Source: an uncultured Pelagibacteraceae bacterium (lineage in GTDB: Bacteria > Pseudomonadota > Alphaproteobacteria > Pelagibacterales > Pelagibacteraceae). From it: DNA of 64,000 nucleotides. A program made the translations under genes and the position numbers. Where the stretch lies: assembly GCA_902572345.1 (NCBI GenBank), contig CACGEW010000001.1:1-64000 (forward strand), read 5' to 3'. Shown here piece after piece: positions 2-35,405 of this stretch (the first letter of the stretch is position 1; each line of letters begins with the position of its first letter). Under the pieces are notes generated by a model. The model was not told the origin of the DNA. It saw only the letters and a program-made list of their open reading frames with translations, and searched no databases.

Positions 2-943
2 TATAAGAAATTGCTCAAATTATTCAATTTTGATAAAAAAAGAGTGTACGATATAAAAGATGCACCTTTTCTTCCAGTAAGGTTATTTAAAGAGGTAGAA
101 TTAAAAAGTGTTAAAGACAGTGCAATCATAAAAGTTCTAAATTCATCAGGAACTTCTGATAATAATTTATCTAAAATTTTTCTAGACAATAAAAATTCAA
201 ATTCTCAATCAAAATCTTTAAGCCTAATCATGAAATCTATTCTAGGAAAAAAAAGAATTCCAATGTTGGTTGTCGATAAAAATTCTAAATTTTCAGATAG
301 AAGAAAAATTAATGCAAGAACCGCTGCAATAAATGGCTTTTCCATATTTGGTAGAGATCATTTTTTCCTATTAAACAATGATAATAGTATTAATTATGAT
401 GGTTTAAATTCATTTTTATTAAAAAATAAAAATCAAAAAATATTTATTTTTGGATTCACAAGCTTAATTTATGAAAATTTAATTCAAAAATTAGTCATAG
501 ATAATCTTCATTTTGATATGAAAAACGCCATACTGCTTCATGGAGGAGGATGGAAGAAAATGGAAAAAGAAAAAATATCAAACAAATCATTCAAAAGTTT
601 ATTGATTTCAAAATTAGGAATAAAAAATATCAGAAATTATTATGGATTAGTTGAACAGACTGGGTCAATTTTCATTGAATGTCCTTGCGGATATTTCGTT
701 ACCTCAAATTTTTCAGATATTTTAATAAGGGACAAAAACTTTAAAATCGTCAAAAATAATACGAAAGGTTTTGTTCAATTAATCTCTTTGCTCCCAACTA
801 GCTATCCAGGACATAACATACTTACAGAAGATTTAGGTGAAATTATCAATAAACCTAATTGTAATTGCTCATTGAAAGGAAAAAGGTTTCTAATACATGG
901 TAGAGTCAAAGAAGCTGAAATAAGAGGTTGTAGTGATGTTTGA
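2..943 (+). CDS. LuxE-family acyl-protein synthetase (5' end outside window)
   Basis: The reading frame is open from base 2, so the true start lies upstream; a TTG at 11 is only the first possible start inside the window. An SSGTSD loop (about residues 45-50 counted from base 11) resembles the nucleotide loop of adenylate-forming LuxE enzymes. YGLVEQTGS (about 211-219), a CPCG pair and ILTEDLG near 273 match the LuxE C-terminal region. LuxE activates a fatty acid as acyl-AMP and passes the acyl group to a protein cysteine. The stop overlaps the next gene, a LuxC-like reductase, so the two should work as a pair. No luxAB or luxD is visible and the context is polysaccharide synthesis, so a role in light emission is unlikely. 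The family call is firm; the substrate is unknown. Confidence 0.8.
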   Translation, partial: YKKLLKLFNFDKKRVYDIKDAPFLPVRLFKEVELKSVKDSAIIKVLNSSGTSDNNLSKIFLDNKNSNSQSKSLSLIMKSILGKKRIPMLVVDKNSKFSDRRKINARTAAINGFSIFGRDHFFLLNNDNSINYDGLNSFLLKNKNQKIFIFGFTSLIYENLIQKLVIDNLHFDMKNAILLHGGGWKKMEKEKISNKSFKSLLISKLGIKNIRNYYGLVEQTGSIFIECPCGYFVTSNFSDILIRDKNFKIVKNNTKGFVQLISLLPTSYPGHNILTEDLGEIINKPNCNCSLKGKRFLIHGRVKEAEIRGCSDV

Positions 944-2132
944 AAAACAGAAAAAAGAAATTAAATATTTGGTAGGCGATGAAAACATCTCTACAAAATT
1001 TTTAACACCATTCCATGAAATAATTTGTGATTTTTTGGGTAAGGTTTCAGAAGAAATTTTAAATGACCGGAGAACAGACAAATTCCCTGACGTAAAAACT
1101 TTAGCTTTTTGGTGTAGAAAAAAAAATATTTTAAATTTAAAAAAGAAATTTTCATCAAAAGAATTAAGGTTTGGTCTTGGACTTATTTTTCACGTCACAC
1201 CCTCAAACGTTCCAACTAATTTTGCATATTCTTTAATTTTTGGTTTATTAACAGGAAATTCAAATATTGTAAAAGTGCCCTCAAAAAACTTTCCCCAAAT
1301 AGATATTATATGTGCTGTTTTGAAAAAGGTCCTAAAATTTAAAAAATATTTGAAAATAAAAAAAATGATTACAATTATTAAATACAGCAAGAATGATGAA
1401 TTTTCAAAAAAAATTTCCTCAATATCTGACGCAAGATTAATTTGGGGCGGAGATGAAACAATAAATAAATTTAAAGAATTTAGGACTCCAGAGAGATCGA
1501 AAGATATTACATTTTCAGATAGATATTCATTTTCAATAATTAACTCAGAAAATTTACTAAAAATAAATAAATTTGAATTTAATTTGTTACTTCAAAGATT
1601 TTATAACGATACTTTTTTAGTTGACCAAAATGCTTGCTCGTCTCCAAGATTAATTGTTTGGACAGGGAAAAAAATTAAACAAGCAAAGTTAAAATTTTGG
1701 AAAAAATTAAACGAAGTAGTATCAAAAAAGTATGATTTACCGGAGGTTGGTGCCATGGATAAATTTAGCCATCTTTGTAAAGATGCAATTAAAAATAAAA
1801 ATTTTAAAGAATTTAAAACTTTCAGTAGCAACATTTATACTATTCAACTAAAAGATTTAGAAGAAAACTCTGACAATATTAAAGGTAAATGGGGTTTTTT
1901 CTATGAATTTCATGTAAATAAATTAGATTATATCTCAAAATTTATAAACAAAAAATATCAAACACTTTCTTATTATGGAGAAAAAAAAGAAAATTTAAAA
2001 AAATTTATAATACGAAATAATATTACAGGTATTGATAGAGTGGTTCCCATCGGTCAAGCTTTAGAAATAGGTTTCTACTGGGATGGATATGATTTAAACA
2101 GTGCTTTATCGAGAATAATAGAGATTAAATGA
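936..2132 (+). CDS. LuxC-like acyl-CoA/acyl-protein reductase
   Basis: This 398-residue protein is of the LuxC family, which reduces acyl thioesters to aldehydes with NADPH. The signature around residues 80-100 (FHVTPSNVP followed by a Gly-rich helix) is the nucleotide-binding region. QNACSSP near residue 234 contains the cysteine expected to carry the acyl group. ATG at 936 is chosen because AGAGG lies 8 bases upstream; GTG at 933 is an alternative. It overlaps the LuxE-like gene by 8 bases and its stop overlaps the dehydratase gene, implying translational coupling. The likely role is delivery of an aldehyde from an activated acyl group within the 1-6453 module. The substrate is not predictable from sequence. 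Confidence 0.85.
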   Translation: MFEKQKKEIKYLVGDENISTKFLTPFHEIICDFLGKVSEEILNDRRTDKFPDVKTLAFWCRKKNILNLKKKFSSKELRFGLGLIFHVTPSNVPTNFAYSLIFGLLTGNSNIVKVPSKNFPQIDIICAVLKKVLKFKKYLKIKKMITIIKYSKNDEFSKKISSISDARLIWGGDETINKFKEFRTPERSKDITFSDRYSFSIINSENLLKINKFEFNLLLQRFYNDTFLVDQNACSSPRLIVWTGKKIKQAKLKFWKKLNEVVSKKYDLPEVGAMDKFSHLCKDAIKNKNFKEFKTFSSNIYTIQLKDLEENSDNIKGKWGFFYEFHVNKLDYISKFINKKYQTLSYYGEKKENLKKFIIRNNITGIDRVVPIGQALEIGFYWDGYDLNSALSRIIEIK

Positions 2133-2593
2133 AAAAACTAATTTTAGATTTAAAGGGAATAAAAGAATATCAACAGAATAGAGCACCTTATCTGCTTATA
2201 GATTATGCTACAGAAGTCTTGCCAGGGGAAAGTGCAAAAGGCTATAAAGATCTTAAGGAAGACGAATGGTTTTTTAAAGTACATTGGCCTAATGACCCAA
2301 ATATGCCTGGCATGTTACAAATTGAGTCCCTTGTTCAAATGTGTGCTCTTGCAATTTTAACTTTACCAGGCAACAAAGGAAAAGTAGTTTACTTGACATC
2401 AGCAAATAACTTAAAATTTATTAAAAAGGTTATTCCTAAAACAAGACTTTATTTAGATACTAGAATAAAAAGCTTCAAAAGAGGTATTGCATCGTGCGAA
2501 GGTACTGGTATTGTGAATGAAACAATTGTTTGCAAAGCAGAATTTAACCTAATACAACCAGAGGAAATTGAAAAATATACTTTAAAGAAATAA
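2129..2593 (+). CDS. Hotdog-fold FabZ/FabA-like hydroxyacyl-ACP dehydratase
   Basis: This 154-residue single hotdog-domain protein is close to the usual FabZ length. The motif VHWPNDPNMPGMLQIES (about residues 49-66) corresponds to the FabZ motif with its active-site His and Glu; both are present, although the GHFP spacing differs from housekeeping FabZ. It would dehydrate a beta-hydroxyacyl group on a carrier protein. The start overlaps the LuxC stop by 4 bases and the radical SAM gene follows 3 bases after. With the SDR (3663) and the ACP (6214) it supplies two of the reductive-cycle steps of acyl metabolism, but no condensing enzyme is present. A thioesterase-like role for this hotdog protein cannot be excluded. 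Confidence 0.7.
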   Translation: MKKLILDLKGIKEYQQNRAPYLLIDYATEVLPGESAKGYKDLKEDEWFFKVHWPNDPNMPGMLQIESLVQMCALAILTLPGNKGKVVYLTSANNLKFIKKVIPKTRLYLDTRIKSFKRGIASCEGTGIVNETIVCKAEFNLIQPEEIEKYTLKK

Positions 2594-2596
2594 ATT

Positions 2597-3658
2597 ATGC
2601 CAATTGCTTCATCACTTTTAAACAAACCGAGATTAGTAAAAAAACTAAAAGATTTTTATGATTATGTTCAGAAAAATGATGGAAAAGTTGGAACGAAAAC
2701 AAGAGGTATTGATTTAAATTTTAATAATGCATGCAATCTAAGGTGTAAATATTGTTTTACTAATTCTCCAAAAGGAGATCATGTAAAAGAATATTTAGAT
2801 ATTAAAGCTATTCGAAAGTTAGCTGACGAGGCAGACGAGCTTGGTTATTTCGAATTTGATTTGCAAGGCGGTGAACTTCTTTTACAACCAAAAAAATTAT
2901 TTGAGGTGTTAGAGGCAATACGACCTGAGAGATTTTATATGTATTTAACAACAAATGGATTTTATCTGGATAAAGCTATGGCAAAAAAATTAGCAGATTA
3001 TAAAGTAAGTAGGGTTTCCGTAAGTATTGATAGTATGGATGAAAAAATACACGATGAAATTAGAGGAAGAAAAGATTCATGGAGAAGAGCAATAGAGGCT
3101 CTAAAACACGTTAAAGATGCTGGTATGGATCCTTATCTTAATATTACAGTTGGTCATTACAATGCAAACACAGAACATTTTAAGCAATTGCTTGATTACT
3201 CGAAAGATCAAAAATATAAAACCTTATTAAACGTAGCAGTGCCATCTGGAATGTGGCAAAATGCTCAGGAAATTATCTGTGATGAAAAAGATAGAGAGTA
3301 TTTAAGAAAAATAAGAAAAGAATATAAAAATTTAGTAAGAAATGTTTGGAACCCATTCGATAAAAATCATGAAAAAATATTGGGCTGTACAACAGTAAAC
3401 AGAATTTACGTAACTCCTATAGGAGATGTATTAGTATGTCCTTACGTCCACATTAAAATTGGAAATATTTTTGAAAAACCCTTGAAAGAAATAATTGACC
3501 ATGGTTTCAGCATTAAATATTTTAGAAATCATAGTGATTTATGTTTAGCTGGAGAAGATAAAGAATTTATTAAGAAATTCATGACAAAAAGTGGTCAGAC
3601 AATATTTAAACCAGCCTTAGCTAAGGATATTTTTAGCAGTGAAGATTTTGTAAAGTAA
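2597..3658 (+). CDS. Radical SAM protein with C-terminal cysteine region
   Basis: The protein has 353 residues. The CxxxCxxC cluster motif NACNLRCKYC (about residues 46-55) binds the SAM-cleaving 4Fe-4S cluster. The DLQGGELLL segment and the TTNG motif further on are typical of radical SAM barrels. A C-terminal region with GCTTVNR, VLVCPY and a late cysteine (LCLAG) looks like a SPASM/Twitch-type auxiliary cluster domain, as in maturases and some sugar or acyl-modifying enzymes. It sits between the dehydratase and the SDR in a tightly packed operon, so a radical step on an ACP-bound or sugar intermediate is possible. The reaction cannot be deduced. The family call is strong. Confidence 0.8.
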   Translation: MPIASSLLNKPRLVKKLKDFYDYVQKNDGKVGTKTRGIDLNFNNACNLRCKYCFTNSPKGDHVKEYLDIKAIRKLADEADELGYFEFDLQGGELLLQPKKLFEVLEAIRPERFYMYLTTNGFYLDKAMAKKLADYKVSRVSVSIDSMDEKIHDEIRGRKDSWRRAIEALKHVKDAGMDPYLNITVGHYNANTEHFKQLLDYSKDQKYKTLLNVAVPSGMWQNAQEIICDEKDREYLRKIRKEYKNLVRNVWNPFDKNHEKILGCTTVNRIYVTPIGDVLVCPYVHIKIGNIFEKPLKEIIDHGFSIKYFRNHSDLCLAGEDKEFIKKFMTKSGQTIFKPALAKDIFSSEDFVK

Positions 3659-3662
3659 ATAG

Positions 3663-4409
3663 ATGTTACTAAAAAATAAAGTTGCGGTTATTACTGGCTG
3701 CAATAAAGGTATAGGAAAAAAAACCCTCGAAGTTTTCTCTAGTAACGGAGCTAATGTATTTGCGTGTGTAAGAAAAGTTGATAATAAATTTACTTCATTT
3801 TGCTCCTCACTTTCGAAAGAAAACAGATGTAAGATTTTTCCAATAGCATTTGATTTAAATGACGAATCTCAAGTCAAGGAAGCCGCACTACAAATTAATA
3901 AAAATGTGGCAAAAGTTGATATACTTATAAATAATGCAGCAGCAATTCAAACTTCTTTATTTCAAATGACAGCGCAAAAGGAATTAAAGGAAACTTTTCA
4001 AACAAATGTGTTTTCCCAGGCTCTTTTCACAAGATATATTTTAAAATCTATGATTAAAAAAAAAACAGGAGGAAGTATAGTTTTTATATCATCTACCTCA
4101 GCCTTGGATGGAAATGTAGGTAGAAATGTATATTCATCTACTAAGGCAGCAATTATCAGTCAAATGCAAGTTCTCTCAAGAGAAATAGGCAGTTCTAATA
4201 TAAGGGTAAATGCTGTTGCACCCGGATTAACCAATACAGAAATGCTTATCAAAAACACTCCTGAAAAAATTATTAAAGAAATAGAAAATAAAATCTCTTT
4301 ACGTAGAATTGCTGATACAAAAGAAATTGCTAACTTAATTTTGTTTCTTGCTTCTGATTTGTCCTCATATATTACTGGCCAAGTGATTAGAGCAGATGGT
4401 GGTATGTGA
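3663..4409 (+). CDS. SDR-family oxidoreductase, 3-oxoacyl-ACP reductase (FabG)-like
   Basis: This 248-residue classical short-chain dehydrogenase has an N-terminal TGCNKGIG cofactor motif (about residues 11-18), NNAA near 90, a catalytic Ser in ISSTSA, and YSSTK (about 157-161) giving the Tyr-Lys pair. The length and the C-terminal ADGGM end match FabG-like enzymes. It would reduce a keto group on an acyl-carrier-bound or sugar substrate with NAD(P)H. It starts 4 bases after the radical SAM gene and overlaps the split transketolase N-half by 4 bases. An operon-specific reductase is more likely than housekeeping FabG, since it lacks the fabD and fabF neighbours. Confidence 0.8.
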   Translation: MLLKNKVAVITGCNKGIGKKTLEVFSSNGANVFACVRKVDNKFTSFCSSLSKENRCKIFPIAFDLNDESQVKEAALQINKNVAKVDILINNAAAIQTSLFQMTAQKELKETFQTNVFSQALFTRYILKSMIKKKTGGSIVFISSTSALDGNVGRNVYSSTKAAIISQMQVLSREIGSSNIRVNAVAPGLTNTEMLIKNTPEKIIKEIENKISLRRIADTKEIANLILFLASDLSSYITGQVIRADGGM

Positions 4410-5254
4410 TGAAAGATAAGAATAAAGATATAGATAAAATAGGACTATTTTCTAAAAATATTAAAAGAAAAATATTAGAAATGGCTTATGTGGCAGGTTC
4501 AAGCAGCTCTCACTTTGGAGGAGCCCTTTCAATTGTAGAAATTATCTCAACATTATTTGCCCATCAATTAAATATTAAGAAGGATGACCCAGAGTGGCTT
4601 GAAAGGGATAGATTTATATTGAGCAAGGGTCATGCATGTTTAGCCTATTATGCTGCCTTGTCGGAAATAGGTTATTTATCAGAAGAAGATCTAAAAACTT
4701 TTGAAAAAGATGGAAGTATTCTGTCTGGCCATCCTGTAAAAAGCCCAAAACACGGAATTGAATTTTCTACTGGATCGCTTGGAATAGGCTTATCAATAGG
4801 GTTGGGACTAGCTTTAGGAGCAAAAAAGAAAAAAAAAACAAATAAAGTTTACATTATAATTGGCGACGGGGAATGTAACGAAGGCTCAATTTGGGAAAGC
4901 GCATTAGCTGCACCTAATTTAAAATTAGATAACTTAGTTGTTATAGTTGATAAAAACAATTTCCAGCAGACCGGCTCAACTGAAAATATAATGAATACGG
5001 ATAAATTGAAAGATAAGTGGGTCAGTTTTGGATGGAGTGTGAGGGAGGTTAACGGACATGATATTAATGAATTATTAAATTATTTTGCTTCACTTAAAGA
5101 CAACTCAAATACCCCTAACCTTTTGATAGCAAATACAATTAAAGGTAAAGGATTTTCTTTCTCTGAAAATAATAATGATTGGCATCATGCTGTAATGACT
5201 AAAACAAATTACGAAAAAGCCATGCAAGAACTTAAGGAGAATAATGATAATTGA
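4406..5254 (+). CDS. Transketolase, N-terminal (TPP-binding) half
   Basis: This 282-residue protein corresponds only to the thiamine-diphosphate-binding domain of transketolase. It carries the HFGGALSIVEI segment near the N terminus, LSKGHACLAYYAAL, and the GDGECNEGSIWE motif from about residue 153, which binds the Mg-TPP diphosphate. The C-terminal half is encoded by the next gene, with overlapping ends (5244-5254), so the two form one split enzyme. The housekeeping tkt is a separate full-length gene at 33042. A dedicated split transketolase inside a sugar and acyl island suggests transfer of a two-carbon ketol unit to an aldehyde made locally. Confidence 0.88.
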   Translation: MMKDKNKDIDKIGLFSKNIKRKILEMAYVAGSSSSHFGGALSIVEIISTLFAHQLNIKKDDPEWLERDRFILSKGHACLAYYAALSEIGYLSEEDLKTFEKDGSILSGHPVKSPKHGIEFSTGSLGIGLSIGLGLALGAKKKKKTNKVYIIIGDGECNEGSIWESALAAPNLKLDNLVVIVDKNNFQQTGSTENIMNTDKLKDKWVSFGWSVREVNGHDINELLNYFASLKDNSNTPNLLIANTIKGKGFSFSENNNDWHHAVMTKTNYEKAMQELKENNDN

Positions 5255-6209
5255 TCAAAAGCAAATTAAGATGTGGTCAACCATAGGCTCTAGGGCAACT
5301 TTAGGAATGGCATTATTAGAGATTTCAAAAAAAAGGGAAAAACTAATGGTTTTAAGTAGCGATGTATCTACTTCAGCAGGATTAGATCGTTTTAGAAAAT
5401 TGAATCAAGATCAATACGTAGAGCTAGGAATTTCAGAACAAAATATGATTGGTATGGCCACAGGTCTCGCCGCTGAAAATTTTGATGTAGTTACAACTAC
5501 TTTCGCACCTTTTCAAACAATTCGTTGCTGTGAGCAAATAAAAGTCAATCTCGGTTACATGAAGCATAAAGTTATATTTGTAGGACTAGCAAGCGGGCTT
5601 GCACTTGGAAACTTAGGTTATACTCATTGTTGTATTGAGGATATTGGAATTTTAAGATCTATTCCAAATATCACAATTATTTCTCCAGCAGATTCATTAG
5701 AAGTTGTAAAAAGTTTAGAGGCCTCTTTTAATAATGATCAAGCTACTTATATCAGGTTGACAGGCACAGCTAACAATCCAATCGTTTATAAAGAAGATTA
5801 TAAATTTGAAATAGGTAAAGGGATAAAACTCATGGATGGTAAAGATGTAACAATTTTTTGTACAGGTAGAATGGTTTATAATAGTCTTGAAGCAGCTAAA
5901 TTATTAAAAGATCAGAATGTTAATGCTTCCGTGATTAATATTCATACAATTAAACCAATTGATAAAAAACTTATTGAGGAGGCAAACGAAACAAAAGTAA
6001 TTTTCTCAGTAGAAGAACACAATACAATAGGAGGATTAGGTAGCGCGATAGCAGAACACAATTCTACAATCAGAAATTCTGTTAAACATATAAGGTTAGG
6101 AGTTCAAGACACCTATTCAGTAGGAGGTAGTTATGACTATCTTCAAAAAAAACATGGACTCTCCGCAAGTAACATTGTAGAAAGCGTCATTAAAAATTTA
6201 AGAAATTAA
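5244..6209 (+). CDS. Transketolase, C-terminal (pyrimidine-binding plus C-domain) half
   Basis: This 321-residue partner of the preceding gene has the pyrimidine-binding domain. ELGISEQNMIGMATG (about residues 59-73) contains the Glu that activates TPP. The remainder matches the transketolase C-terminal domain, including VEEHNTIGGLGSA near residue 255. The overlap with the N-half implies coupled translation. Split transketolases of this type occur in many bacteria. Four bases downstream is an acyl carrier protein, so the acceptor aldehyde may derive from a carrier-bound acyl group via the LuxC-like reductase; this is inference. Confidence 0.88.
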   Translation: MIIDQKQIKMWSTIGSRATLGMALLEISKKREKLMVLSSDVSTSAGLDRFRKLNQDQYVELGISEQNMIGMATGLAAENFDVVTTTFAPFQTIRCCEQIKVNLGYMKHKVIFVGLASGLALGNLGYTHCCIEDIGILRSIPNITIISPADSLEVVKSLEASFNNDQATYIRLTGTANNPIVYKEDYKFEIGKGIKLMDGKDVTIFCTGRMVYNSLEAAKLLKDQNVNASVINIHTIKPIDKKLIEEANETKVIFSVEEHNTIGGLGSAIAEHNSTIRNSVKHIRLGVQDTYSVGGSYDYLQKKHGLSASNIVESVIKNLRN

Positions 6210-6213
6210 TCTA

Positions 6214-6453
6214 ATGAACAATAATGAGAAATATAAAAATGTTTTTTCAAAGTCTCTTTCAATAGAGTCTTCAAAAGTTTCTGAAAATTTAAAATATAAT
6301 GATATACCTGAGTGGGACTCGATCGGCCATATGACTTTAATTTCTGGATTAGAGGATGAATTTAATATCTCTATAGAAACCGATGACATAATAGATTTCA
6401 GTTCTTTTGAAAAAGGAAAAGAAATATTGAAAAAATATAAAATAACTTTTTAA
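6214..6453 (+). CDS. Acyl carrier protein
   Basis: This 79-residue acidic helical protein has the carrier motif WDSIGHM, whose Ser36 is the expected 4'-phosphopantetheine attachment site, followed by an acidic helix II-like stretch (GLEDEFNISIETDD). It is probably not the housekeeping AcpP, because the motif is DSIGHM rather than DSLD and the gene lacks fab neighbours. As the last gene of the 1-6453 run it is the natural carrier for the LuxE-like, dehydratase and SDR enzymes. The ACP fold is confidently recognised; the cargo is unknown. Confidence 0.85.
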   Translation: MNNNEKYKNVFSKSLSIESSKVSENLKYNDIPEWDSIGHMTLISGLEDEFNISIETDDIIDFSSFEKGKEILKKYKITF

Positions 6454-7811: not shown

Positions 7812-8489
7812 ATGGCTATATGTATTATTCCAGCTAGAAAAGGTAGCAAGAGGATAAAAAATAAAAATATAAAAAAAATAAACAAAATTCCTCTAATCTC
7901 AATGGTCATAAAGTTAGCGTTAAGGTCGAAACTTTTTGATAAAGTAATTGTTTCAACAGACTCAAAATCAATTTCAAAAATTGCTGTTATGAGTGGAGCA
8001 GAAGCGCCATATTTAAGAAATAAAAAACTTTCTAATAATTACACACCCACATATGAAGTATTAATCGATGTTGTAAAAAAACTAAAAATAAAAAATAAAT
8101 TTATCTTTTGTATTTATCCCACTTCTATTATGACAAAGACACAAGATCTAAGAAAAGCTTTTAAGTTAATAAAAATTAAAAAAGCAGATTTTCTTTGTCC
8201 TGTAATTAAAAACGAAAATAATTTACTTAGATCGTATATAAAAACAGGGCAATTTATAAAATACTTATTACCCAAGTATAGATTATACAGAAGCCAAGAT
8301 TTGCCAGAAATCTTTTCAGACGTAGGATCATTTTATATATATAGATTAAAAGCTTTAAAAAAGTTGAGTAAAAAAAATCCTATTCCAATAAAATCAATTA
8401 AATATGTCTTAAAAAACAAGTTTATTGATATTAATTATCCTAAAGACCTTAAACTTGTAAGAAAAATTTTTAAAAATAAGACCAATTAA
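7812..8489 (+). CDS. CMP-nonulosonate (acylneuraminate/pseudaminate-type) cytidylyltransferase
   Basis: This 225-residue GT-A-fold nucleotidyltransferase has PARKGSKRIKNKN (about residues 7-19), the CTP-binding signature of the NeuA/PseF/KdsB group. VIVSTDSKSI and GAEAPYLR further on are especially like PseF and NeuA. It activates a nonulosonic-type sugar as its CMP derivative for transfer to a surface glycan. PseB and PseC genes occur downstream, but no PseI/NeuB-type synthase is in the window, so the exact sugar is unresolved. The gene follows the MBL-fold protein closely, in the same orientation. Confidence 0.82.
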   Translation: MAICIIPARKGSKRIKNKNIKKINKIPLISMVIKLALRSKLFDKVIVSTDSKSISKIAVMSGAEAPYLRNKKLSNNYTPTYEVLIDVVKKLKIKNKFIFCIYPTSIMTKTQDLRKAFKLIKIKKADFLCPVIKNENNLLRSYIKTGQFIKYLLPKYRLYRSQDLPEIFSDVGSFYIYRLKALKKLSKKNPIPIKSIKYVLKNKFIDINYPKDLKLVRKIFKNKTN

Positions 8490-8913: not shown

Positions 8914-10632
8914 ATGAATAACATCTTAAAATTAATAAGCGTTAAGAAAAAAAGTGAATTTTTAATTCTGTTAATTCTTATTTTAATTACCTCATTTTTT
9001 GAAACAATAACCATTGGCGTTTTTCTGCCATTTGTTACTTTAATTTTAGGTGGAAAATCTAATATAGAGTCATTTAATTTTATTGATAATTCTCAATTTA
9101 TTAAAACTTTAACATCTAATTTTGACGAGTACGAATTGATTATAATTTCGTTACTTATTTTTTTATCAGTTTTTATAATAAAAATCTTTTTTGTAATTTT
9201 TATTACTTGGTATAGAGAAAATTTCAAATGGTCATTATTTCACTTGTTATCAAAAAAAATTCTTGGAAGCCATATAATGAAAAATACTTCCTTTTTTTTT
9301 AAAAAAAATTCCTCAGAATATACGAGTCAAACATTACTCCAGTCTAACCAAGCTGTTGAAAGTATAAATTCGCTTATTTTTTTAATCAATGAAATTATTG
9401 TTTTTATTTCAATTTTTACATTGCTTGTTATTTTAGATTATCAAATTACTTTTTTTTCTGTTTCAATTTTTATAGTGTTATTTTTATTACCTTTTTTATT
9501 TTTTTCTAAAATCAAAATAAAAAAATGGGCATCTAATCAATTATTTCATGAGCACAATCAAATTAAAAATATTAATGAGAGCTTTGCAATGTTTAAATAT
9601 ATTAAAGTACATAATATTGAAAAGTTTTTTTTTGATAAATATGTAGGGAATAATTTTTTTTCTGCATATTATAAAAAATTAATTGCCTTTTTTCTTCAAG
9701 TGCCCAGACACTATCTTGAGCTTTTAACAATTATTTTAATTTCTTTGATCATTTTGTTTCACCATTACAATGAAAAATCATCTACAGAATATTTGCCAAT
9801 TATTGCAATATTTATGTTGGCTGCATCCAGGATGGTACCATCGATAAATAAAATATTAGTTTCCATTCAAACTTTTATTGCAGGTATTCCAGCAATAAAT
9901 TCTATTTCAAAAGAGATCAATAAAAAATCCATCAGATTAAAAAAAATTGATAAATTTGATAGTTTTAAAAATTTAAAATTAAAAAATATTTCATTTGCGT
10001 ACGAAAAAAATAATTCTATTTTTAAAAAAATTAACCTTGAAATAAATTCGGGGGATAAAATTATAATTAAAGGTAGTTCCGGTGTAGGAAAAAGTACTTT
10101 AGTAGAGCTAATTCTTGGTTTAAGAAAAATTAATTCTGGAAGTTTTTACCTAAATGGAAAAAAAGTAAATAATTATAAAGTTCATGAACAATTAAAATTT
10201 AACTATCTTCCCCAATCTAGCTATATGGTAGATGGATCAATTAAGGACAATATTGTTTTAAATAACAATCAGTTAACAAAAGAGACTTTTTGGAAAATAC
10301 TAAATATATGTAAATTAAATACGTTGATTTCAAAATTAAGAAAAAAAGAAAATACTTTAACCGGTGAAAATGGGGTTATTTTATCGGGTGGTCAGAAACA
10401 AAGAATTTGCATAGCAAGAGCTTTAGCAGACAACCCCTCCTTCTTAATACTCGATGAGTCAACCAATGCTATAGATATGTCTACAGAAAACTCCATATTG
10501 AAAGACCTAAATAAGTATTATAAGAAAATCACACTTATTATGGTAACTCATAGAAAAACTAATATAAAGTATTTTAACAAGATTATAGAAATGTCAAAAA
10601 ATAAAATAAAACTTATTAATAGAAATGTTTAA
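8914..10632 (+). CDS. ABC transporter, fused permease-ATPase (MsbA/PglK-like flippase)
   Basis: The 572-residue half-transporter has an N-terminal membrane domain with about six hydrophobic segments (residues 1-320) and a C-terminal ATPase. The ATPase shows Walker A GSSGVGKST (about 387-395), the signature LSGGQKQR (about 490) and Walker B LILDEST (about 510). Such exporters flip lipid-linked oligosaccharides or lipid A across the inner membrane. Position in a surface-sugar operon supports a PglK-like oligosaccharide flippase. It overlaps the pseB-like gene by 8 bases. No Wzx/Wzy pair is seen in the window. Confidence 0.85.
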   Translation: MNNILKLISVKKKSEFLILLILILITSFFETITIGVFLPFVTLILGGKSNIESFNFIDNSQFIKTLTSNFDEYELIIISLLIFLSVFIIKIFFVIFITWYRENFKWSLFHLLSKKILGSHIMKNTSFFFKKNSSEYTSQTLLQSNQAVESINSLIFLINEIIVFISIFTLLVILDYQITFFSVSIFIVLFLLPFLFFSKIKIKKWASNQLFHEHNQIKNINESFAMFKYIKVHNIEKFFFDKYVGNNFFSAYYKKLIAFFLQVPRHYLELLTIILISLIILFHHYNEKSSTEYLPIIAIFMLAASRMVPSINKILVSIQTFIAGIPAINSISKEINKKSIRLKKIDKFDSFKNLKLKNISFAYEKNNSIFKKINLEINSGDKIIIKGSSGVGKSTLVELILGLRKINSGSFYLNGKKVNNYKVHEQLKFNYLPQSSYMVDGSIKDNIVLNNNQLTKETFWKILNICKLNTLISKLRKKENTLTGENGVILSGGQKQRICIARALADNPSFLILDESTNAIDMSTENSILKDLNKYYKKITLIMVTHRKTNIKYFNKIIEMSKNKIKLINRNV

Positions 10633-11614
10633 CAATAAAACAATTTTAGTTACAGGTGGCACAGGATCTTTCGGAAAAAGTTTTGTCAAGAAACTACTTG
10701 ATAAATATAATTGTAAAAAGATCATAATTTTCTCTCGTGATGAGTTAAAACAATTTGAATTAAAAGAGTCCCTTTCAAATCATAAACGCGCAAAAACGTT
10801 AAGATTTTTTTTAGGAGATATAAGAGATAAAAGCAGAATAAGCACAGCTTTAATTAATGTCGATTATGTTTGTCATTGTGCAGCATTAAAACAAATCGAA
10901 GCAGCTGAATATAACTCACAAGAATGTGTAAAAACAAATATTTTTGGCACTCAAAACGTGATTGAAGCTGCAATCGATAATAACGTTAAAAAAGTAATAA
11001 CATTATCTACAGATAAAGCCGTTGATCCTATTAATTTGTATGGCGCAACTAAACTTGCAGCAGATAAATTGACAATCTCTTCTAATTTAGTTTCAGTACA
11101 TAAGGAGACGATATTTTCTGTAGTTAGATACGGTAATGTGATTAATTCTCGAGGATCTGTAATTCCATTTTTTAAATCTTTAATTGAGAAAAAAAATTCT
11201 TTTATACCTCTTACTCATCCAGAAATGACCAGATTTTTCATAAGTTTAGATCAAAGCGTTGATTTTGTAATTAAATCATTTTTGAGAATGAAAGGTGGTG
11301 AGGTTTTTATACCTAAATTACCTTCTATTAGAATAATTGATATAATTAAAGCTTTGAACCAAAAGATTAAAATAAAAATAATTGGAATTCGACCTGGAGA
11401 AAAAATACATGAAGTTTTATGTGCTCAAAATTCATCACATTTAATATTAAATTTTAACGATCACTTAGTCCTTAAACCTAGTATTAATCTCAATAAAAAT
11501 TATAATATTAATGGTCTAAAAGAAAAGGGAAAATCTGTTGAAAAAGATTTTGTTTATTCATCTGACAATAATCAAAAATTTTTGACTATTTCTGAAATAA
11601 AAAAAATTATCTAA
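10625..11614 (+). CDS. pseB: UDP-N-acetylglucosamine 4,6-dehydratase (inverting), PseB-like
   Basis: This 329-residue extended SDR has TGGTGSFG (residues 9-16) binding NADP, ALKQIEAAEYNS in mid-sequence, STDKAVDP (about 127-134) and YGATK (about 139-143) with the catalytic Tyr-Lys. These strings are characteristic of PseB/FlaA1 enzymes that convert UDP-GlcNAc to the 4-keto-6-deoxy-L-altro sugar. The matching aminotransferase follows directly, giving the first two steps of pseudaminic-acid-type synthesis. A related role in making a bacillosamine-like or L-fucosamine-type sugar remains possible. Confidence 0.88.
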   Translation: MFNNKTILVTGGTGSFGKSFVKKLLDKYNCKKIIIFSRDELKQFELKESLSNHKRAKTLRFFLGDIRDKSRISTALINVDYVCHCAALKQIEAAEYNSQECVKTNIFGTQNVIEAAIDNNVKKVITLSTDKAVDPINLYGATKLAADKLTISSNLVSVHKETIFSVVRYGNVINSRGSVIPFFKSLIEKKNSFIPLTHPEMTRFFISLDQSVDFVIKSFLRMKGGEVFIPKLPSIRIIDIIKALNQKIKIKIIGIRPGEKIHEVLCAQNSSHLILNFNDHLVLKPSINLNKNYNINGLKEKGKSVEKDFVYSSDNNQKFLTISEIKKII

Positions 11615-11620
11615 TATTTA

Positions 11621-12781
11621 ATGATTCCCTATAGTAAACAAAAAATAACAAACAAAGATATACACTCAGTAAATAAAGTTTTAAAATCAAATTTTATAAC
11701 TCAAGGCAAAACAATAGAAATTTTTGAAAAAAAAATATGTAATTTTGTTAAAGCAAAATTTGGTGTTGCCAGTAATAGCGCTACAAGCTCATTACATATA
11801 GCGTGCTTAGCATTAGATCTAAAATCTAACGACATTTTATGGACTGTTGCGAATTCATTTGTTGCTTCAGCAAATTGTGCAAGGTATTGTGGAGCAACGG
11901 TTGACTTTGTAGATATTAATCCGAATACTTTTAATATTGATGTTGATCATTTAGAAAGAAAATTAAAAAAAACAAAAAAAAATAAATTACCAAAAATTTT
12001 AGTAGTAGTTCATTTTGCTGGAGAACCTGCTGAAATGAAAAAAATTTATAAGCTTAAACTCAAATATAAATTTAAAATAATTGAAGATGCCTCACACGCT
12101 TTAGGAGCAAAAATTAAAAATAATTTTATAGGATCGTGTAAGTACTCTGATTTAGCAGTTTTTAGCTTTCATCCAGTAAAACCAATTACAACAGCTGAGG
12201 GCGGGATAGCAACTACCAATAAAAAAGACTTATATGTTAAAATGCAAATGTTGCGAAACCATGGAATTACAAGAGATTTAAAGCTTTATAAAAATAAAAT
12301 TAATCATCACTGGTATTACGAACAACAGTTATTAGGATTTAATTATAGAATGAATGATATTGAAGCTGCTTTAGGAATAAGCCAATTAAGCAATTTGATT
12401 AAATATAATAAACAAAGATCAAAAATAGTTAAATATTATAAAAAAATTTTAAAAAATCTACCAATTAAGTTTCAAAATTTAATTGGAGAAAATTCTTCTA
12501 CTCATCATTTGTGTGTAATAAAAATAAATTTAAAAAAACTTAAGATTTCTTATAATAATTTTTTTGAAAAACTAAGAAAAAAAAATATTGGAATTAATCT
12601 TCATTATCTTCCAATTTATAGTCAACCTTATTATCAAAAATTGAAAAAATATCCAAAATTAAAAAATACAGAAGATTATTATCGTTCAGCGATTTCCATT
12701 CCAGTTTTTCCTGGTTTAAGTGAAAAAAAACTTCGTTATATCTGCGAAACTTTAAAAAATTTAATTTTATCACACTTATAG
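11621..12781 (+). CDS. pseC: UDP-4-amino-4,6-dideoxy-N-acetyl-beta-L-altrosamine transaminase, PseC-like
   Basis: This 386-residue DegT-family PLP aminotransferase carries NSATSSLHIACLAL (about residues 52-65), IIEDASHALG and FSFHPVKPITTAEGG, where Lys187 is the PLP lysine. Similarity to PseC is high across the N-terminal half, including WTVANSFVASANCARYCGA. It aminates the PseB product at C4. It lies 6 bases after pseB and ends one base before the LIC12162-type gene. The later enzymes PseG, PseH and PseI are not in the window, so they may lie to the left, or the diamino sugar may be used directly. Confidence 0.87.
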   Translation: MIPYSKQKITNKDIHSVNKVLKSNFITQGKTIEIFEKKICNFVKAKFGVASNSATSSLHIACLALDLKSNDILWTVANSFVASANCARYCGATVDFVDINPNTFNIDVDHLERKLKKTKKNKLPKILVVVHFAGEPAEMKKIYKLKLKYKFKIIEDASHALGAKIKNNFIGSCKYSDLAVFSFHPVKPITTAEGGIATTNKKDLYVKMQMLRNHGITRDLKLYKNKINHHWYYEQQLLGFNYRMNDIEAALGISQLSNLIKYNKQRSKIVKYYKKILKNLPIKFQNLIGENSSTHHLCVIKINLKKLKISYNNFFEKLRKKNIGINLHYLPIYSQPYYQKLKKYPKLKNTEDYYRSAISIPVFPGLSEKKLRYICETLKNLILSHL

Positions 12782-14533
12782 ATGGCAGGTACTTTAATCC
12801 TTCACAATGAATGTGAAGTTCCAAATAATCAAGAAATAATTTTTTTTAATGAACTTATTAAGTCTCATTATTTTAAAAAAAAAAAAATTTTAAATAACTT
12901 TAAAATACTATCACCATATGGCCTGGAAGATGATATTTTAAAATATGATGTAAAATATTTAAGCAATATTTATGATAGATATATAATTAAGATTTCTCAC
13001 GAATTAAATAAAATTCATGGCACAAAAAAATCAGAAAAGTATTGGAGTATTATCCTAGGAAAATGGCTTAGAGATTTTACCTATGCAACTTTTAATAGAT
13101 ATCAAACAATAAAAAAAGGTTTTAAAGAACACAAAATTGAGAAAATAATTCTAATCGAAGATAAAAAAAATTTTTTCCCCGTTATAGATGGCACCGCCAT
13201 TAATTATTATTCAAATGATAAGCTTTTTGATGCAATTTTAATATCTAATATTTTTAAAAATCTAAACCAAAGTTATAACTATAAAATAAATTACTTAACG
13301 GATAAGTTTGTGGAAAAATATCACAAAACAAAATATTTTGAAAAAAAATCTTTTTTACATAATTTACTATCACAGTTTTTAAATACGTTCGACTTTTCAA
13401 AGGAAAGTGATTTTTTAGTAATAAGTTCTTACTTAAAATCAATTGAAGAAATAAAATTAAATTTCCATTTAAACAAAAAATTTCAATTTTTTTATTACCC
13501 AAAAATTAGCTATAAAATTCTTAAGATTAATAGACAATTGAGAGAAAAATTAAACTTTGAAGATAAATCACAAGATGAATTTGAAAAAGTATTAAATAAA
13601 ATAATTCCAATTTACTTACCTCTAACAGTCCTTGAAAATTATCTTCAAATTAAAAATTTTGTTGAAAGCAAAATAAATTGGCCGAAAAATCCAAAAATAA
13701 TTTTCTCATCAAACTCATTTGCTGACGGAGGGCCAGCACAATTTTGGATTGCAGAAAAAAGTGAGTATAAAAGTAAATATTTACTTGGTCAGCATGGAGC
13801 AGGCTATCTAGAATATTATGATAAAAATTTTAGAGCAGAGTTAAAGCCCGTAGATGGATTCATCTCTTGGGGAAATCATATATTCAGTGAAAAAATAAAG
13901 CCAACTTTTAATTTTACTTTGACGAATAAAAAAAAATTTAAAAAAAAAGATAAGCTATTATTTGTTTTTAAATCTTCTGGAAACAGAATTGTCCCGTATG
14001 ACCGATTTGAATATGGCAGGATAATATTTAATCAATCTCAAAATTTAATCACCAACCTTAGAAACGATATAAAAAAAAAATTATTATTAAGATTACATTC
14101 AAGTTATAAAAAAGAAATTTACTTTGAATTTGATGAATTTTTGAAACAACATGATTATCTTGAAATTGACAAAAAAACAAATTTTAATAAATTGATAAGT
14201 CTTTCAAAATTAACAATTTATAATGATTATAGTACAGGTTTTGTTTATGGATTGAATATGAATCTACCATCCCTAATTTTTTTGCCTTTAGGTTTAAGGT
14301 TTATTCATGATGAAAATAAAAAAGACTTTATAAAATTAATTGAAAATAAAATGGTTTTTACATCAATTGATGAACTTAAAACTTATCTTAATCAAAATTG
14401 GGATAATATTGAGGAACTCTGGAATAGTAAAAGCAGTAAAGAAGCAAGGAGGCTTTTTATCGATAAATATTCATTACCAAAACCATCTGATAAAATACAT
14501 AAACTTTCAGAATTTTTAAAGAAAATGATTTAA
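12782..14533 (+). CDS. LIC12162-family putative transferase
   Basis: The 583-residue protein resembles the putative transferase family named after Leptospira LIC12162. Supporting points are the N-terminal KSEKYWSIILGKWLRDF segment (about residues 80-96), a mid-protein SSNSFADGGPAQFWIAEK and GQHGAGY (about 317-345), and a conserved C-terminal YSTGFVYGLNMNLPS (about 482-496) reminiscent of GT-B glycan transferases. From memory, the family appears in surface-sugar and nonulosonate loci. A glycosyl or related transfer role fits its place after pseB and pseC, but no biochemical function is established that I can name. It starts immediately after the pseC stop. Confidence 0.7.
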   Translation: MAGTLILHNECEVPNNQEIIFFNELIKSHYFKKKKILNNFKILSPYGLEDDILKYDVKYLSNIYDRYIIKISHELNKIHGTKKSEKYWSIILGKWLRDFTYATFNRYQTIKKGFKEHKIEKIILIEDKKNFFPVIDGTAINYYSNDKLFDAILISNIFKNLNQSYNYKINYLTDKFVEKYHKTKYFEKKSFLHNLLSQFLNTFDFSKESDFLVISSYLKSIEEIKLNFHLNKKFQFFYYPKISYKILKINRQLREKLNFEDKSQDEFEKVLNKIIPIYLPLTVLENYLQIKNFVESKINWPKNPKIIFSSNSFADGGPAQFWIAEKSEYKSKYLLGQHGAGYLEYYDKNFRAELKPVDGFISWGNHIFSEKIKPTFNFTLTNKKKFKKKDKLLFVFKSSGNRIVPYDRFEYGRIIFNQSQNLITNLRNDIKKKLLLRLHSSYKKEIYFEFDEFLKQHDYLEIDKKTNFNKLISLSKLTIYNDYSTGFVYGLNMNLPSLIFLPLGLRFIHDENKKDFIKLIENKMVFTSIDELKTYLNQNWDNIEELWNSKSSKEARRLFIDKYSLPKPSDKIHKLSEFLKKMI

Positions 14534-14614: not shown

Positions 14615-15589
14615 ATGAATATAAATTGGTCTCATCCAGATTTACTTCCGAAAAAACTTGTTTTTGTTGACGGAATTACAAGATCAGGAAAGTCAATGGC
14701 AGGACCAATTATTTCATCTTTTCGAGGAGCATATGCTTTTCAACACCAAGCTATATTAGATAACTTAATGCCTTTGTTAAAAAAAAAGTCTATTACTATT
14801 GATGCCGCAAAATCTCTTTTAGTATTTTATTTTAATCAAAATGTTTATAGCTTAAATATCTCAAGAGGTATTAATTTTAGACCGGGCGATCATAGTAGCG
14901 TTACAAAAGATAAAGATTATAAATCTTTTGTAAAAAATTTAAAAAAACCTGATGGCGACTATGTAATTAAAGAAATAAAAAAAAGAAATCACGCTCCTAT
15001 TTATATGTCACATGATTTACTTTCAATGATAGATATTTTTGAAAAAATTAACTTAAATTATAAAATGGTTTACACTTATCGACATCCTATAGATAATATT
15101 TTTTCTTTAATACAAAGGTATCAAAGAGTTAAGGCAAAAAATAAACTTAAGTACAATTATAATAATCCAAGAATATATTCAATGATGATTAGAAAGAACA
15201 ATATTTTGTTGCCATATTATACTTCAGGAAATGAAAATTTATTTTTAAAACTAAATCATTCTGAAAAATATACTTTTTATTTTCTTCATAGTTTAAAAAA
15301 TTCAATAAACCAGTATAAAAAATTAAAAGATAAAAAGAAAATATTTTTATTATCTTACGATGATTTTGCCACAAATACAAAGCAGGAAGTAAAAAAATTA
15401 TCCAAATTTTTATTATTAAAAGAATCTAATTTTACTGTAAGATCACTCAAAAATGAGAACTTACCAAGAAAACTTAATTCCAAATTAAGAACAAAAAAAA
15501 TGAAAATTATAAAAAAATCCATAAATAAAAAAATGTTTGATGAAGTTGTCTTGTTATCTACAAAATATGATAATAAGGCATTATTTTAA
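14615..15589 (+). CDS. P-loop sulfotransferase-like protein
   Basis: The 324-residue protein has the N-terminal loop VDGITRSGKSMAG (about residues 18-30), fitting the 5'-phosphosulfate loop of sulfotransferases, and YRHPIDNIFSL (about 155-165), fitting the 3'-phosphate-binding motif. FLLSYDDFATN near residue 250 matches the family's later conserved strand. The likely role is transfer of sulfate from PAPS to a sugar of the surface polysaccharide. No PAPS synthesis genes are visible here. It is the first gene after the second operator. A P-loop kinase function is a weaker alternative. Confidence 0.6.
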   Translation: MNINWSHPDLLPKKLVFVDGITRSGKSMAGPIISSFRGAYAFQHQAILDNLMPLLKKKSITIDAAKSLLVFYFNQNVYSLNISRGINFRPGDHSSVTKDKDYKSFVKNLKKPDGDYVIKEIKKRNHAPIYMSHDLLSMIDIFEKINLNYKMVYTYRHPIDNIFSLIQRYQRVKAKNKLKYNYNNPRIYSMMIRKNNILLPYYTSGNENLFLKLNHSEKYTFYFLHSLKNSINQYKKLKDKKKIFLLSYDDFATNTKQEVKKLSKFLLLKESNFTVRSLKNENLPRKLNSKLRTKKMKIIKKSINKKMFDEVVLLSTKYDNKALF

Positions 15590-33041: not shown

Positions 33042-35024
33042 TTACTCTCTCAATTTTTTTTGAATAAAATTTGTTATATCGTCCTCTGATAATTTAAAAT
33101 GTTTGTAAACTTCTTTATAAGGAGCACTTTCACCAAATTTATCTATACCTAAATTGGCGCCTTTATCTTTAATATATTTTTGCCAAGACATTACACTTCC
33201 AGCTTCTATTGTGATGATTAATGAGTTTTCTTCTAAAATATCTTTTCGGTAATCTTCAGGCTGTTTATCAAAAAGTTCCATACATGGCATCGAAACTACT
33301 TTTGAGTGAATTTTATTTTCTCTTAGTTTATCTTGAACTTTTAAGGCAAGCTCTACCTCCGTACCTGAAGCAACCAATGTTACATTACTATCATGCGAAG
33401 TTAAATTAATTACATAAGCTCCTTTTTCACATTTGTTTTCTTTTGAATTTTTTGGGTTTATGTAAGGAACTTTTTGTCTAGATAACGCAATCGCACTTGG
33501 CGTATTTTTGCTTTTTAAAGCTATTTCCCAACATTCAAAAGTTTCATTTATATCCGCAGGTCTAAATACATTTAAATTTGGTATAGCTCTTAGTCCAGCT
33601 AGTTGTTCAATTGGTTGGTGCGTAGGTCCGTCTTCACCAAGACCAATCGAGTCATGTGAAAAAACATAAACAACTTTTAGACCCATCAAGGCAGAAAGTC
33701 TTATGGAAGGTTTACAATAATCAGAAAAAATTAAAAAAGTTCCTCCATAAGGAATTATTCCCCCATAAAGCGCTAAACCGTTCATAACTGCAGCCATACC
33801 GTGTTCTCTAACCCCATAATGAATGTAATTGCCATTAAAGTTTTTAGAGTTGATAATTTTAGAGTTATTAGTTTTTGTATTATTTGAACCACTTAAATCT
33901 GCTGACCCACCTATTAATTGCGGAAGAAAAGCAGAAATTTTTTCAATCGCTACCATCGAGCACTGTCTTGTTGCTAAACTTGGTTTAGCTTCAAAATATT
34001 TCTCCTTCTCTTTTTGGACTAAATTTTCTAAACCTGAGGGGTCTAATTTTTCTTTAAATTTGTTAAGTTCATTTTCAATTTTTGGATTTTTTTTTTTAAT
34101 TACTTGCAACCAGTTTTTCTCTAACTGCTCACCTTTATTTCCTATTTCTCTCCATTCATCTAAAATTTCTTGAGGTATCTCAAATGGAGAGCTGTTCCAT
34201 TTTAATTTTTTCCTTACTAATGCTATTTCATCATCACCTAAAGGGGAACCATGAGAGGAAGATTTACCAGATTTATTAGGTGACCCAAATCCTATTATAG
34301 TCTTACAAGATATGATCGTTGGTTTTTTTGATTTTGAAGCTTTGGTGATCGCTTTTGATATTTGTTTTTCATTATGACCATTAACCTCCATAAAGCTCCA
34401 ACCATAGGACTCAAATCTTTTTTTATAGTTATCCGAAACACTTAAAGATGTTGAGCCATCTATTGAAATTTTATTATTATCAAAAAAAACTATTAAGTTT
34501 TTTAATTTAAGATGACCGGCTAAACTCATTGCCTCGTGACTAATACCTTCCATCAAGTCACCATCACTGGCGATTACATATGTTTTGTTATTAATAACTC
34601 CTGAGCCAAATTTTTTTCTAAATATTTCTTCAGCTATTGCCATGCCAACTGCATTAGCTAAACCTTGTCCTAATGGTCCAGTAGTGGTTTCAATTCCTGA
34701 ACCCTTTTTATACTCAGGATGACCTGCACAAATAGAATTTAATTGTCTAAAATTTTTTATATCCTCAATAGAAACACTTTTGTAACCGTTTAGATAAAGA
34801 AGAGAATAAAGCAGCATAGAGCCATGACCAGCGGATAAAATAAATCTATCTCTATTAATCCAGTTAGGATTTTTTGGATTAAACCTCAGGTGGTATTTGA
34901 ATAAACAAGTTGCAACATCTGACATTCCCATAGGCATCCCCGGATGGCCAGAATTTGCTTTTTGCACAGCATCAATTGATAAAAATCTAATTGCGTTTGA
35001 TAATTGATTAAATTTTACAGTCAC
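33042..35024 (-). CDS. tkt: Transketolase (full length)
   Basis: This 660-residue enzyme has all three domains: [18 protein letters not shown] near the N terminus, [19 protein letters not shown]-type TPP binding (with D for G in the first position here: SDGDLMEG), [16 protein letters not shown] with the catalytic Glu, and [15 protein letters not shown]. It moves two-carbon units in the pentose phosphate pathway. GTG at 35024 is preferred over upstream starts because the family begins a few residues before [11 protein letters not shown] and AGG lies 9 bases upstream. It is divergent from the DUF4164-zapA pair. The window also has a separate split transketolase at 4406-6209. Confidence 0.93.
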
Positions 35025-35081
35025 TTTGAATAACCTATATAGACTTAAACTAACTATATCAATAATATGGTATAAATCTTT

Positions 35082-35405
35082 ATGAGTAGTTTTGAAAAGA
35101 AAGAGCAAAATTTAAACCAACTTATTGATAAATTAAACTCACTATCACTAAGTTATTCACAACCAAATCATGAGTTAGAAAAAATTAGAACTGAAAAAAA
35201 TGAACTTTCTAATCAAAAAAAAGAAATTGAAAAAAAAAACGAGGAATTAATGAGGGAACATAAATATTTAAGAGAAAAAATAAAAAAACTGCAATCAGAA
35301 GTCAACAAAAGGTCAGATCTTGAAGATAAGTTTAATCAAGATATTGAGGAATTAAGTCAAGAAACTGAAAATTTAGCAAACGAAATAGATAAATGGCAAA
35401 TGTAA
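35082..35405 (+). CDS. DUF4164-like coiled-coil protein
   Basis: A 107-residue, strongly charged helical protein with almost continuous heptad-like Glu/Lys/Leu pattern (about residues 38-100). Proteins of this kind (DUF4164) are encoded directly upstream of zapA and divergent from tkt in many alphaproteobacteria, and the same layout is seen here. Its function is not established. By position it may partner with ZapA at the division ring. It overlaps zapA by 13 bases. Confidence 0.7.

Follow-up and report, generated by a model that had tools for sequence, protein, structure and literature searches.

The window analysed here is the first 64,000 bases of the first contig (CACGEW010000001.1) of an uncultured Pelagibacteraceae assembly (GCA_902572345.1; 990,790 bases, 92% complete). 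It opens with eight genes of a nine-gene cassette that includes LuxE- and LuxC-like proteins, a split transketolase (TK) and an acyl carrier protein (ACP). We regard the nine genes as one conserved pathway, and the case for their linkage is strong, with all nine found together in most distinct loci of their most conserved member. Tentatively, at somewhat less than an even chance, we propose that this pathway makes a carrier-bound group for a surface glycan of the pseudaminic- or nonulosonic-acid type, by way of an aldehyde to which TK would add a ketol unit.

The nine-gene unit and its distribution

The eight open reading frames (ORFs) of the window run head to tail on the plus strand (positions 2–6453) and encode, in order, LuxE, LuxC, FabZ, a radical SAM protein (rSAM), a short-chain dehydrogenase/reductase (SDR), the N-terminal and C-terminal chains of the split TK (TK-N and TK-C) and ACP (Table 1). 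ACP gave no Pfam match at E 0.001 and was recognised through NCBIfam ACP models only. A sequence-only reading of the window had assigned these families and positions correctly; it had called the genes mostly overlapping, whereas four of the seven junctions overlap and three are gaps of 3–4 bases. Two further corrections concern a truncation and a ninth gene. LuxE has 313 residues in the window and 354 in the syntenic orthologue, locus L061 (LuxC 93% identical), because the start of the contig cuts its 5′ end. Directly upstream of the LuxE gene in L061, L008 and L009 lies a gene for an AMP-binding, AMP-forming ligase (ANL), a place that in the window falls off the contig edge. ANL was not found elsewhere in the window's assembly, where the best match was 28% identical. 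The complete unit is ANL-LuxE-LuxC-FabZ-rSAM-SDR-TKN-TKC-ACP.

The linkage search started from the gene for rSAM, which is better conserved than the other eight. The genome contigs scanned yielded 68 loci, the first 62 of which are close relatives with at least 64% identity; these, the window and L045, from one further genome, make up 64 distinct loci, and the remaining six matches were left out as distant. All nine genes were present in 44 of the 64, and in 36 of these 44 they stood in identical order on one strand. The ligase counted in two of the complete loci (L057 and L114) may be another enzyme because it scores low and lies on the opposite strand. Nineteen of the 20 incomplete loci stop at a contig edge where the absent genes would be; in the last (L098), PglD-, NeuC-, NeuB-like and other genes follow rSAM and the end comes 5.7 kb further on. 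The co-occurrence on which the sequence-only reading had staked its gene set is therefore nearly complete, and the association of these genes is not a matter of chance.

At a threshold of E 1e-30, rSAM was present in 24 of 297 genomes of the host's order. Carriers are mostly Pelagibacteraceae; the others are three further Alphaproteobacteria (L101–L103), a member of SAR324 (L106), an elusimicrobium (L111) and a deltaproteobacterium (L113). The cassette TK occurred in one of 369 genomes sampled from the class of genome G590, the one being G590 itself. No relative was found in viral contigs scanned with TK-N and with the rSAM alignment. Plasmids searched with rSAM by tblastn gave 13 records, each below 60% identity and none reaching 80% query coverage, and phages searched with TK-C gave 20 records, each likewise below 60% identity. 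Some copies are irregular. In L054 and L112 the contig ends in an incomplete additional copy of rSAM, which is 94% identical to the rSAM of the window, compared with 65% for the complete copy, and in L104 both LuxC and TK-N are broken into several ORF pieces, so that this copy may be decaying or contain sequencing errors.

Five of the genes (ACP, SDR, ANL, LuxE and LuxC) form a core that also exists without TK. LuxC was found at 32 places in 31 of 397 Pseudomonadota genomes. We read 27 of these places; the window accounts for one of the other five, and the remaining four share a family with a place that was read. Fourteen of the places read were island-type, 11 without TK and three with it. 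All five core genes were recovered by hidden Markov models in eight of the 11 TK-less loci, with no separate LuxE match in L157 and no SDR match in L158 and L161. Of the TK-bearing loci, L162 has neither FabZ nor an oxidase, and in L163 and L166 the gene directly after FabZ encodes a GMC oxidoreductase, next to which comes a small protein.

Trees of LuxE and LuxC were built with 19 chosen rSAM loci, from 50 LuxE and 52 LuxC long ORFs. In the LuxC tree, the TK-bearing members formed one clade (98/90), the core type another (96/91), and eight non-island rows, called lux-like by label alone as luxAB was not looked for there, stood apart (100/100). The LuxE tree again recovered the TK group (92/89); the core rows, which include the non-island row L174 by default, and the lux-labelled rows were not single clades. 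L162, with TK and without FabZ, branched at the base of the TK clade in both trees (forks 94/86 for LuxE and 83/93 for LuxC). Gene sets nest within one another in step with the LuxC tree, a pattern that suggests stepwise assembly of the cassette. The separate LuxC clades with and without TK further suggest that the substrate of the reductase changed along with the arrival of TK.

Active-site residues of the cassette enzymes

The Asp of the GDG motif and four His of the active site are present in all 66 TK-N sequences, and by these residues the cassette TK is predicted to be a thiamine diphosphate-dependent, ketol-transferring enzyme. It is a dedicated one, as the sequence-only reading had it, because the window also encodes a full-length TK (Table 1). 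The closest solved chains are those of the split TK of Carboxydothermus, 6yak for TK-N and 6yaj for TK-C. In TK-C, the equivalents of R358, R520, H473 and S385 (E. coli numbering) are kept in all 67 sequences, among them three residues that bind the donor phosphate. The position of H461 is occupied by Ala or Gly in all 67 (Ala116 in the window) and that of D469 by Leu in 66 and Phe in one (Leu124 in the window). Both the full-length TK of the same genome and the active Carboxydothermus split TK retain His, Glu and Asp at 461, 468 and 469, and the cassette enzyme, judged by these positions, would not be a TK of the pentose-phosphate type. We take His461 of E. coli TK to act toward phosphorylated, alpha-hydroxylated substrates. 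An altered acceptor site next to kept phosphate-binding residues fits a ketose-phosphate donor and an aldehyde acceptor without an alpha-hydroxyl, as LuxC would make. In the portions of PMC5073344 available to us, wild-type E. coli TK is inactive on three aromatic aldehydes and the D469T variant is active on two, and a series of S385Y/D469T/R520Q variants moves acceptor use away from phosphorylated compounds toward non-polar aliphatic and aromatic ones.

The acyl-handling enzymes have also kept their functional residues. Cys310 near the C-terminus of LuxE is conserved in 54 of 54 aligned sequences and aligns with the GCS motif at the C-terminal end of the LuxE chain in PDB 7xc6; Cys235 of LuxC is conserved in 56 of 56 and aligns with the DQQAC motif of LuxC in the same structure. 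We assume that these two are the catalytic, acyl-transferring cysteines, and both members of a LuxC-LuxE acyl reductase pair would then be intact. His52 and Glu66 of FabZ (both in 65 of 65), Tyr157 and Lys161 of SDR (both in 66 of 66) and Ser36 in the WDS motif of ACP (63 of 63) are invariant. The LuxC Cys, placed near 234 by the sequence-only reading, and Ser36 of ACP are thus both present in the window proteins.

Neither bioluminescence nor ordinary fatty acid synthesis matches the gene set, as had been claimed from the absence of a luciferase and a ketosynthase. Against the NCBIfam equivalogs, the truncated LuxE scores 50.6 bits where 550 are required and LuxC 46.6 where 750 are required, both far too low. 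Neither luxAB nor a ketosynthase gene, which would have told against the sequence-only reading, is among the upstream genes of L061; these are ANL, PseI, PseG-like, pyruvate-kinase-like and sulfate-activation-like. Ketosynthases were searched by phmmer with one FabF and three FabH-type proteins of SAR11 genomes as queries in sets of 123, 3 and 27 loci, duplicates included, and no FabF- or FabH-type protein was found among the ORFs of these loci, which speaks against type II fatty acid synthesis. A phmmer search at E 0.01 with the genome's two E2 proteins as queries likewise found no lipoyl/E2 protein in the loci searched. The window's assembly has only one ketoacyl synthase and no FabH-type (ACP_syn_III) match, and FabH-type matches were obtained in just 3 of 13 genomes, the window's relatives included.

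SPASM/twitch proteins combine a CxxxCxxC motif with CX9-15GX4C and a later Cys. The rSAM protein has this arrangement, with Cys46/50/53 and a single-cluster (twitch-like) C-terminus with Cys264/281/316, and all six are kept in 64 of 64 sequences. A further residue, Cys228, is present in 58 of the 64, including the window; it is replaced in L101–L103, L106, L111 and L113 and kept in other, equally distant sequences. The AlphaFold2 model (mean pLDDT 75, pTM 0.81) matches SkfB, SuiB, viperin, BlsE, anSME and MoaA at Z scores from 21.6 to about 20, and with so many SPASM/twitch relatives at similar Z the fold search assigns no function. The relevant part of PMC9012708 gives four auxiliary-cluster Cys for the alcohol-oxidising BtrN and three for MoaA. 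We rejected a BtrN-like dehydrogenase as a candidate: three auxiliary Cys are invariant instead of four, and Cys228 is lost in six of 64.

The rSAM protein is also by far the most conserved member of the set, with a median pairwise identity of 86% compared with 37–59% for the other eight genes (28 loci). Fourfold-site identity of its gene is 37–46% (three loci). High protein identity at low fourfold-site identity makes constraint the likely cause of this conservation, and recent exchange the less likely one. In L123, L163 and L166 a GMC oxidoreductase stands in the place of rSAM, directly after FabZ, and among the loci compared GMC was absent from rSAM loci and rSAM from GMC loci. The same FabZ-GMC set lies on a Rhizobium plasmid, and that GMC gene is present on ten Rhizobium plasmids at 95–100% identity. 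The exchange suggests an oxidation at this step, although the cysteines do not, and having two enzymes at one position offers a handle on the rSAM reaction.

Surface-glycan setting, proposed route and alternatives

The genes downstream of the cassette belong to a surface-polysaccharide island (Table 1). Curated cut-offs are passed by PseB and PseC of the window and by PseI of L061; PseF and PseG stay below theirs, and PseH was not seen among the genes scanned. The sequence-only reading had suggested a deoxy-sugar-like or acyl-substituent product, used near the CMP-sugar synthetase; a link to pseudaminic or nonulosonic acid fits better than a generic deoxy-sugar. In favour of such a link, NeuB/PseI proteins were present in the available DNA of 34 of the 64 loci, and of 25 of the 34 loci with at least 18 kb (the first 25 kb of the window were taken). 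Between ACP and the synthetase lies a 436-residue hydrolase-like protein with no Pfam or PDB sequence match; the L061 copy is 77% identical, and a homologue is encoded in 6 of the 63 other loci. Genes resembling those for APS kinase, ATP sulfurylase and pyruvate kinase are located upstream in L061 (448–3195); these genes and the sulfotransferase of the window suggest a sulfated surface polysaccharide in SAR11. A 522-residue PseG-like protein is also encoded there (L061 3254–4822), matching PseG over residues 4–275 and giving no Pfam match over any part. L009, L123, L125, L162, L163 and L166 have an acyltransferase of the PglD/LbH type at the cassette or close by. Among the 64 loci, a PglD-like cluster was found in 11 and an AAC(3)-like cluster, one member of which was confirmed by Pfam, in 13.

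Table 1. Annotated genes of the window, with the matches on which each assignment is based
Feature	Position	Strand	Evidence
LuxE-type acyl-protein ligase, 5′ truncated by contig edge	2–943	+	Pfam LuxE 7.2e-48
LuxC-type acyl thioester reductase	933–2132	+	Pfam LuxC 2.1e-26
FabZ-like 3-hydroxyacyl-ACP dehydratase	2129–2593	+	Pfam FabA-like 3e-20; NCBIfam FabZ 2e-27, below cut-off
Radical SAM protein (rSAM)	2597–3658	+	Pfam Radical_SAM 3e-31 plus SPASM
SDR (FabG-like) reductase	3663–4409	+	Pfam adh_short_C2 3.4e-53
Split transketolase, N-terminal (ThDP-binding) chain, TK-N	4406–5254	+	Pfam Transketolase_N 1e-46
Split transketolase, C-terminal chain, TK-C	5244–6209	+	Pfam Transket_pyr and Transketolase_C
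Acyl carrier protein (ACP), 79 aa	6214–6453	+	NCBIfam ACP models, best 2.3e-7, below cut-off
Metal-dependent hydrolase-like protein, 436 aa	6493–7803	+	Weak NCBIfam match, residues 1–89
PseF-like CMP-sugar synthetase	7812–8489	+	Pfam CTP_transf_3; TIGR03584 PseF 175 bits, below cut-off 205.7
PseB	10625–11614	+	TIGR03589 460 bits, cut-off 407.75
PseC	11621–12781	+	TIGR03588 494 bits, cut-off 423.5
LIC12162-family transferase	12782–14533		Over curated cut-off; homologues in 4 other loci
Sulfotransferase	14615–15589		
Full-length transketolase (contrast to the split enzyme)	33042–35108	-	Keeps His/Glu/Asp at 461/468/469 positions

Gene families, linkage, catalytic residues and nested gene content are what we observed; to these the pathway model adds substrates, an order of steps and a product. 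LuxE and LuxC would convert an acid, held as an acyl-enzyme thioester, to an aldehyde, and the split TK, with hydroxypyruvate or a ketose phosphate as donor, would extend it by a two-carbon ketol unit. The resulting polyol-ketone would be oxidised or rearranged by rSAM, or by the GMC flavoprotein in some relatives, and ANL would load the acid form on ACP. FabZ could then dehydrate and SDR reduce the ACP-borne group, and its transfer to an amino sugar may fall to an acyltransferase, of a PglD/LbH- or AAC(3)-like kind in loci that have one. The net effect would be an extension by two carbons in which a transketolase takes the place of a ketosynthase. In its full form, with LuxE-LuxC, TK, interchangeable rSAM/GMC oxidation, ACP loading, FabZ and SDR yielding an acyl-ACP with two more carbons and a 2-hydroxy (or related) acyl group for a nonulosonic-acid glycan, this scheme is possible but rather unlikely. 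The simpler idea of an aldehyde extended by TK was part of the sequence-only reading, and it appears to gain from the changed acceptor site, the single TK-bearing LuxC clade and the precedent of azinomycin discussed below; its individual steps stay proposals.

Several observations weigh against the proposed pathway. FabZ cannot take the TK product directly because that product carries its hydroxyls in the alpha and not the beta position relative to the ketone; oxidation and loading would have to come in between. Three auxiliary Cys, as described for the net redox-neutral MoaA, make an oxidase role of rSAM weak, and LuxC could work in the oxidative direction. Where the core exists without TK, its aldehyde must be used otherwise. 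Conversely, L217, a 7.5-kb contig, has SDR-TK-N-TK-C without the other cassette genes, and an SDR match is absent from L166. The change at D469 is weak evidence and was rejected as a hallmark of the cassette, since in 27 other alphaproteobacterial split TK-C chains, which are the next-best matches and not a random sample, Asp is kept in only five and Leu is present in ten. The association with NeuB/PseI was counted without a matched control, and some loci showed no acyltransferase. Finally, rSAM distances track those of the other genes weakly (Mantel r 0.15–0.38, 38 loci). Together with the much higher conservation of rSAM, this would be expected if the cassette were an ordinary mosaic of unrelated surface-island genes with no joint function. 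We consider such a mosaic highly improbable: distances among the eight other genes are correlated (Mantel r 0.27–0.73, p at most 0.009), and the near-complete linkage extends over several phyla.

The remaining alternatives assign TK or the aldehyde to other products. Nucleotide-sugar and CMP-sugar genes in the island, and closest solved TK relatives that act on sugars, would agree with an aldehyde or ketol built onto a sugar to give a branched or higher-carbon sugar, the deoxy-sugar option of the earlier reading, instead of an acyl group. ACP, FabZ and the AMP-forming ligase imply thioester chemistry, however, and with PglD/LbH acyltransferases at or near six of the loci this outcome is unlikely. 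The core might instead make a simple hydroxyacyl or hydroxyalkyl substituent, with TK just supplying a small acid or aldehyde derived from sugar phosphate upstream. The abundance of the TK-less core among island-type loci is in line with this, as is its presence in the flagellin-glycan islands of Aeromonas and enterobacteria, where the accessible text reports a 102-Da unit of the A. piscicola glycan as unidentified (PMC7874193, PMC4875605). We nevertheless judge it decidedly unlikely given that the LuxC tree separates TK-bearing from TK-less loci. It is more improbable still that TK loads a two-carbon glycolyl unit on ACP as in quinocarcin and scleric acid biosynthesis (QncN/L/M, SclQ1-4), the LuxE-LuxC aldehyde branch being separate. 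The pairing of split TK with ACP is the same as in SclQ1-4, for which the part of PMC6335953 we refer to proposes that a ketose phosphate is turned into an activated glycolic unit, and the conserved donor-phosphate-binding residues would suit it. The failure to find a lipoyl/E2 protein in the loci searched speaks against this scheme, as does the presence of LuxE-LuxC in every TK-bearing locus with complete DNA; L217, a short contig, shows no LuxE-LuxC.

If the aldehyde-TK pathway is correct, lengthening a carbon chain by two carbons requires neither a ketosynthase nor malonyl units and can be carried out by a module apparently assembled stepwise and present in several phyla. It would also identify a surface structure of SAR11, which are among the most abundant cells in the sea and whose phages are thought, in the section of PMC7029224 concerned, to alter the host surface.

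Comparison with known systems

The LuxC-LuxE pair of bioluminescence belongs to the same two families and has both catalytic Cys. The cassette differs in its sub-cut-off equivalog scores, in the absence of luxAB upstream in L061 and in a LuxC that stands apart (100/100) from the eight lux-labelled rows. The split-gene TK of Carboxydothermus (6yak/6yaj), the closest solved relative of both chains, differs in keeping the His461 and Asp469 equivalents that the cassette TK does not. The Qnc and Scl systems share split TK chains with ACP; they have their own lipoyl-attachment/acyltransferase protein (SclQ4), of a type not found in the cassette loci searched, and the passages on them in PMC6335953 describe no LuxE-LuxC.

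The five-gene core itself is already published, of which the sequence-only reading was unaware. As far as the available text of PMC7874193 and PMC4875605 shows, group II flagellin-glycosylation islands of Aeromonas contain genes for ACP, a 3-oxoacyl-ACP reductase, an AMP-ligase, LuxE and LuxC, placed between pseudaminic-acid genes, and similar sets occur in enterobacteria; they were taken for fatty acid synthesis, and a liposugar was suggested. The same five families recur here in a similar setting: four are in the window together with PseB and PseC, and ANL and PseI are found in L061. The cassette adds the split TK, FabZ and rSAM (or GMC), and its LuxC forms a clade apart from the core type, in a tree with no Aeromonas sequence by name. 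The word transketolase does not occur in either paper, and our literature search found, in the sources as far as they were accessible, no description of LuxE-LuxC together with a transketolase and rSAM. The aldehyde-TK pathway, if true, would provide a testable function for LuxE-LuxC sets that these papers only name as fatty acid synthesis genes.

The closest chemical parallel is found in azinomycin biosynthesis. The pertinent part of PMC9570651 mentions no FabZ or rSAM and describes activation of the acid as an acyl phosphate by AziC3/C4 instead of by LuxE-LuxC, for an antibiotic and not a surface glycan. In that account N-acetyl-glutamate semialdehyde gains two carbons through a transketolase that is named as a pair of gene products, AziC5/C6. 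LuxE, LuxC, TK-N and TK-C stand together in one cassette here and, set beside AziC5/C6 by description only, may follow the same course as AziC3-AziC6, from acid to aldehyde to two-carbon extension by transketolase.

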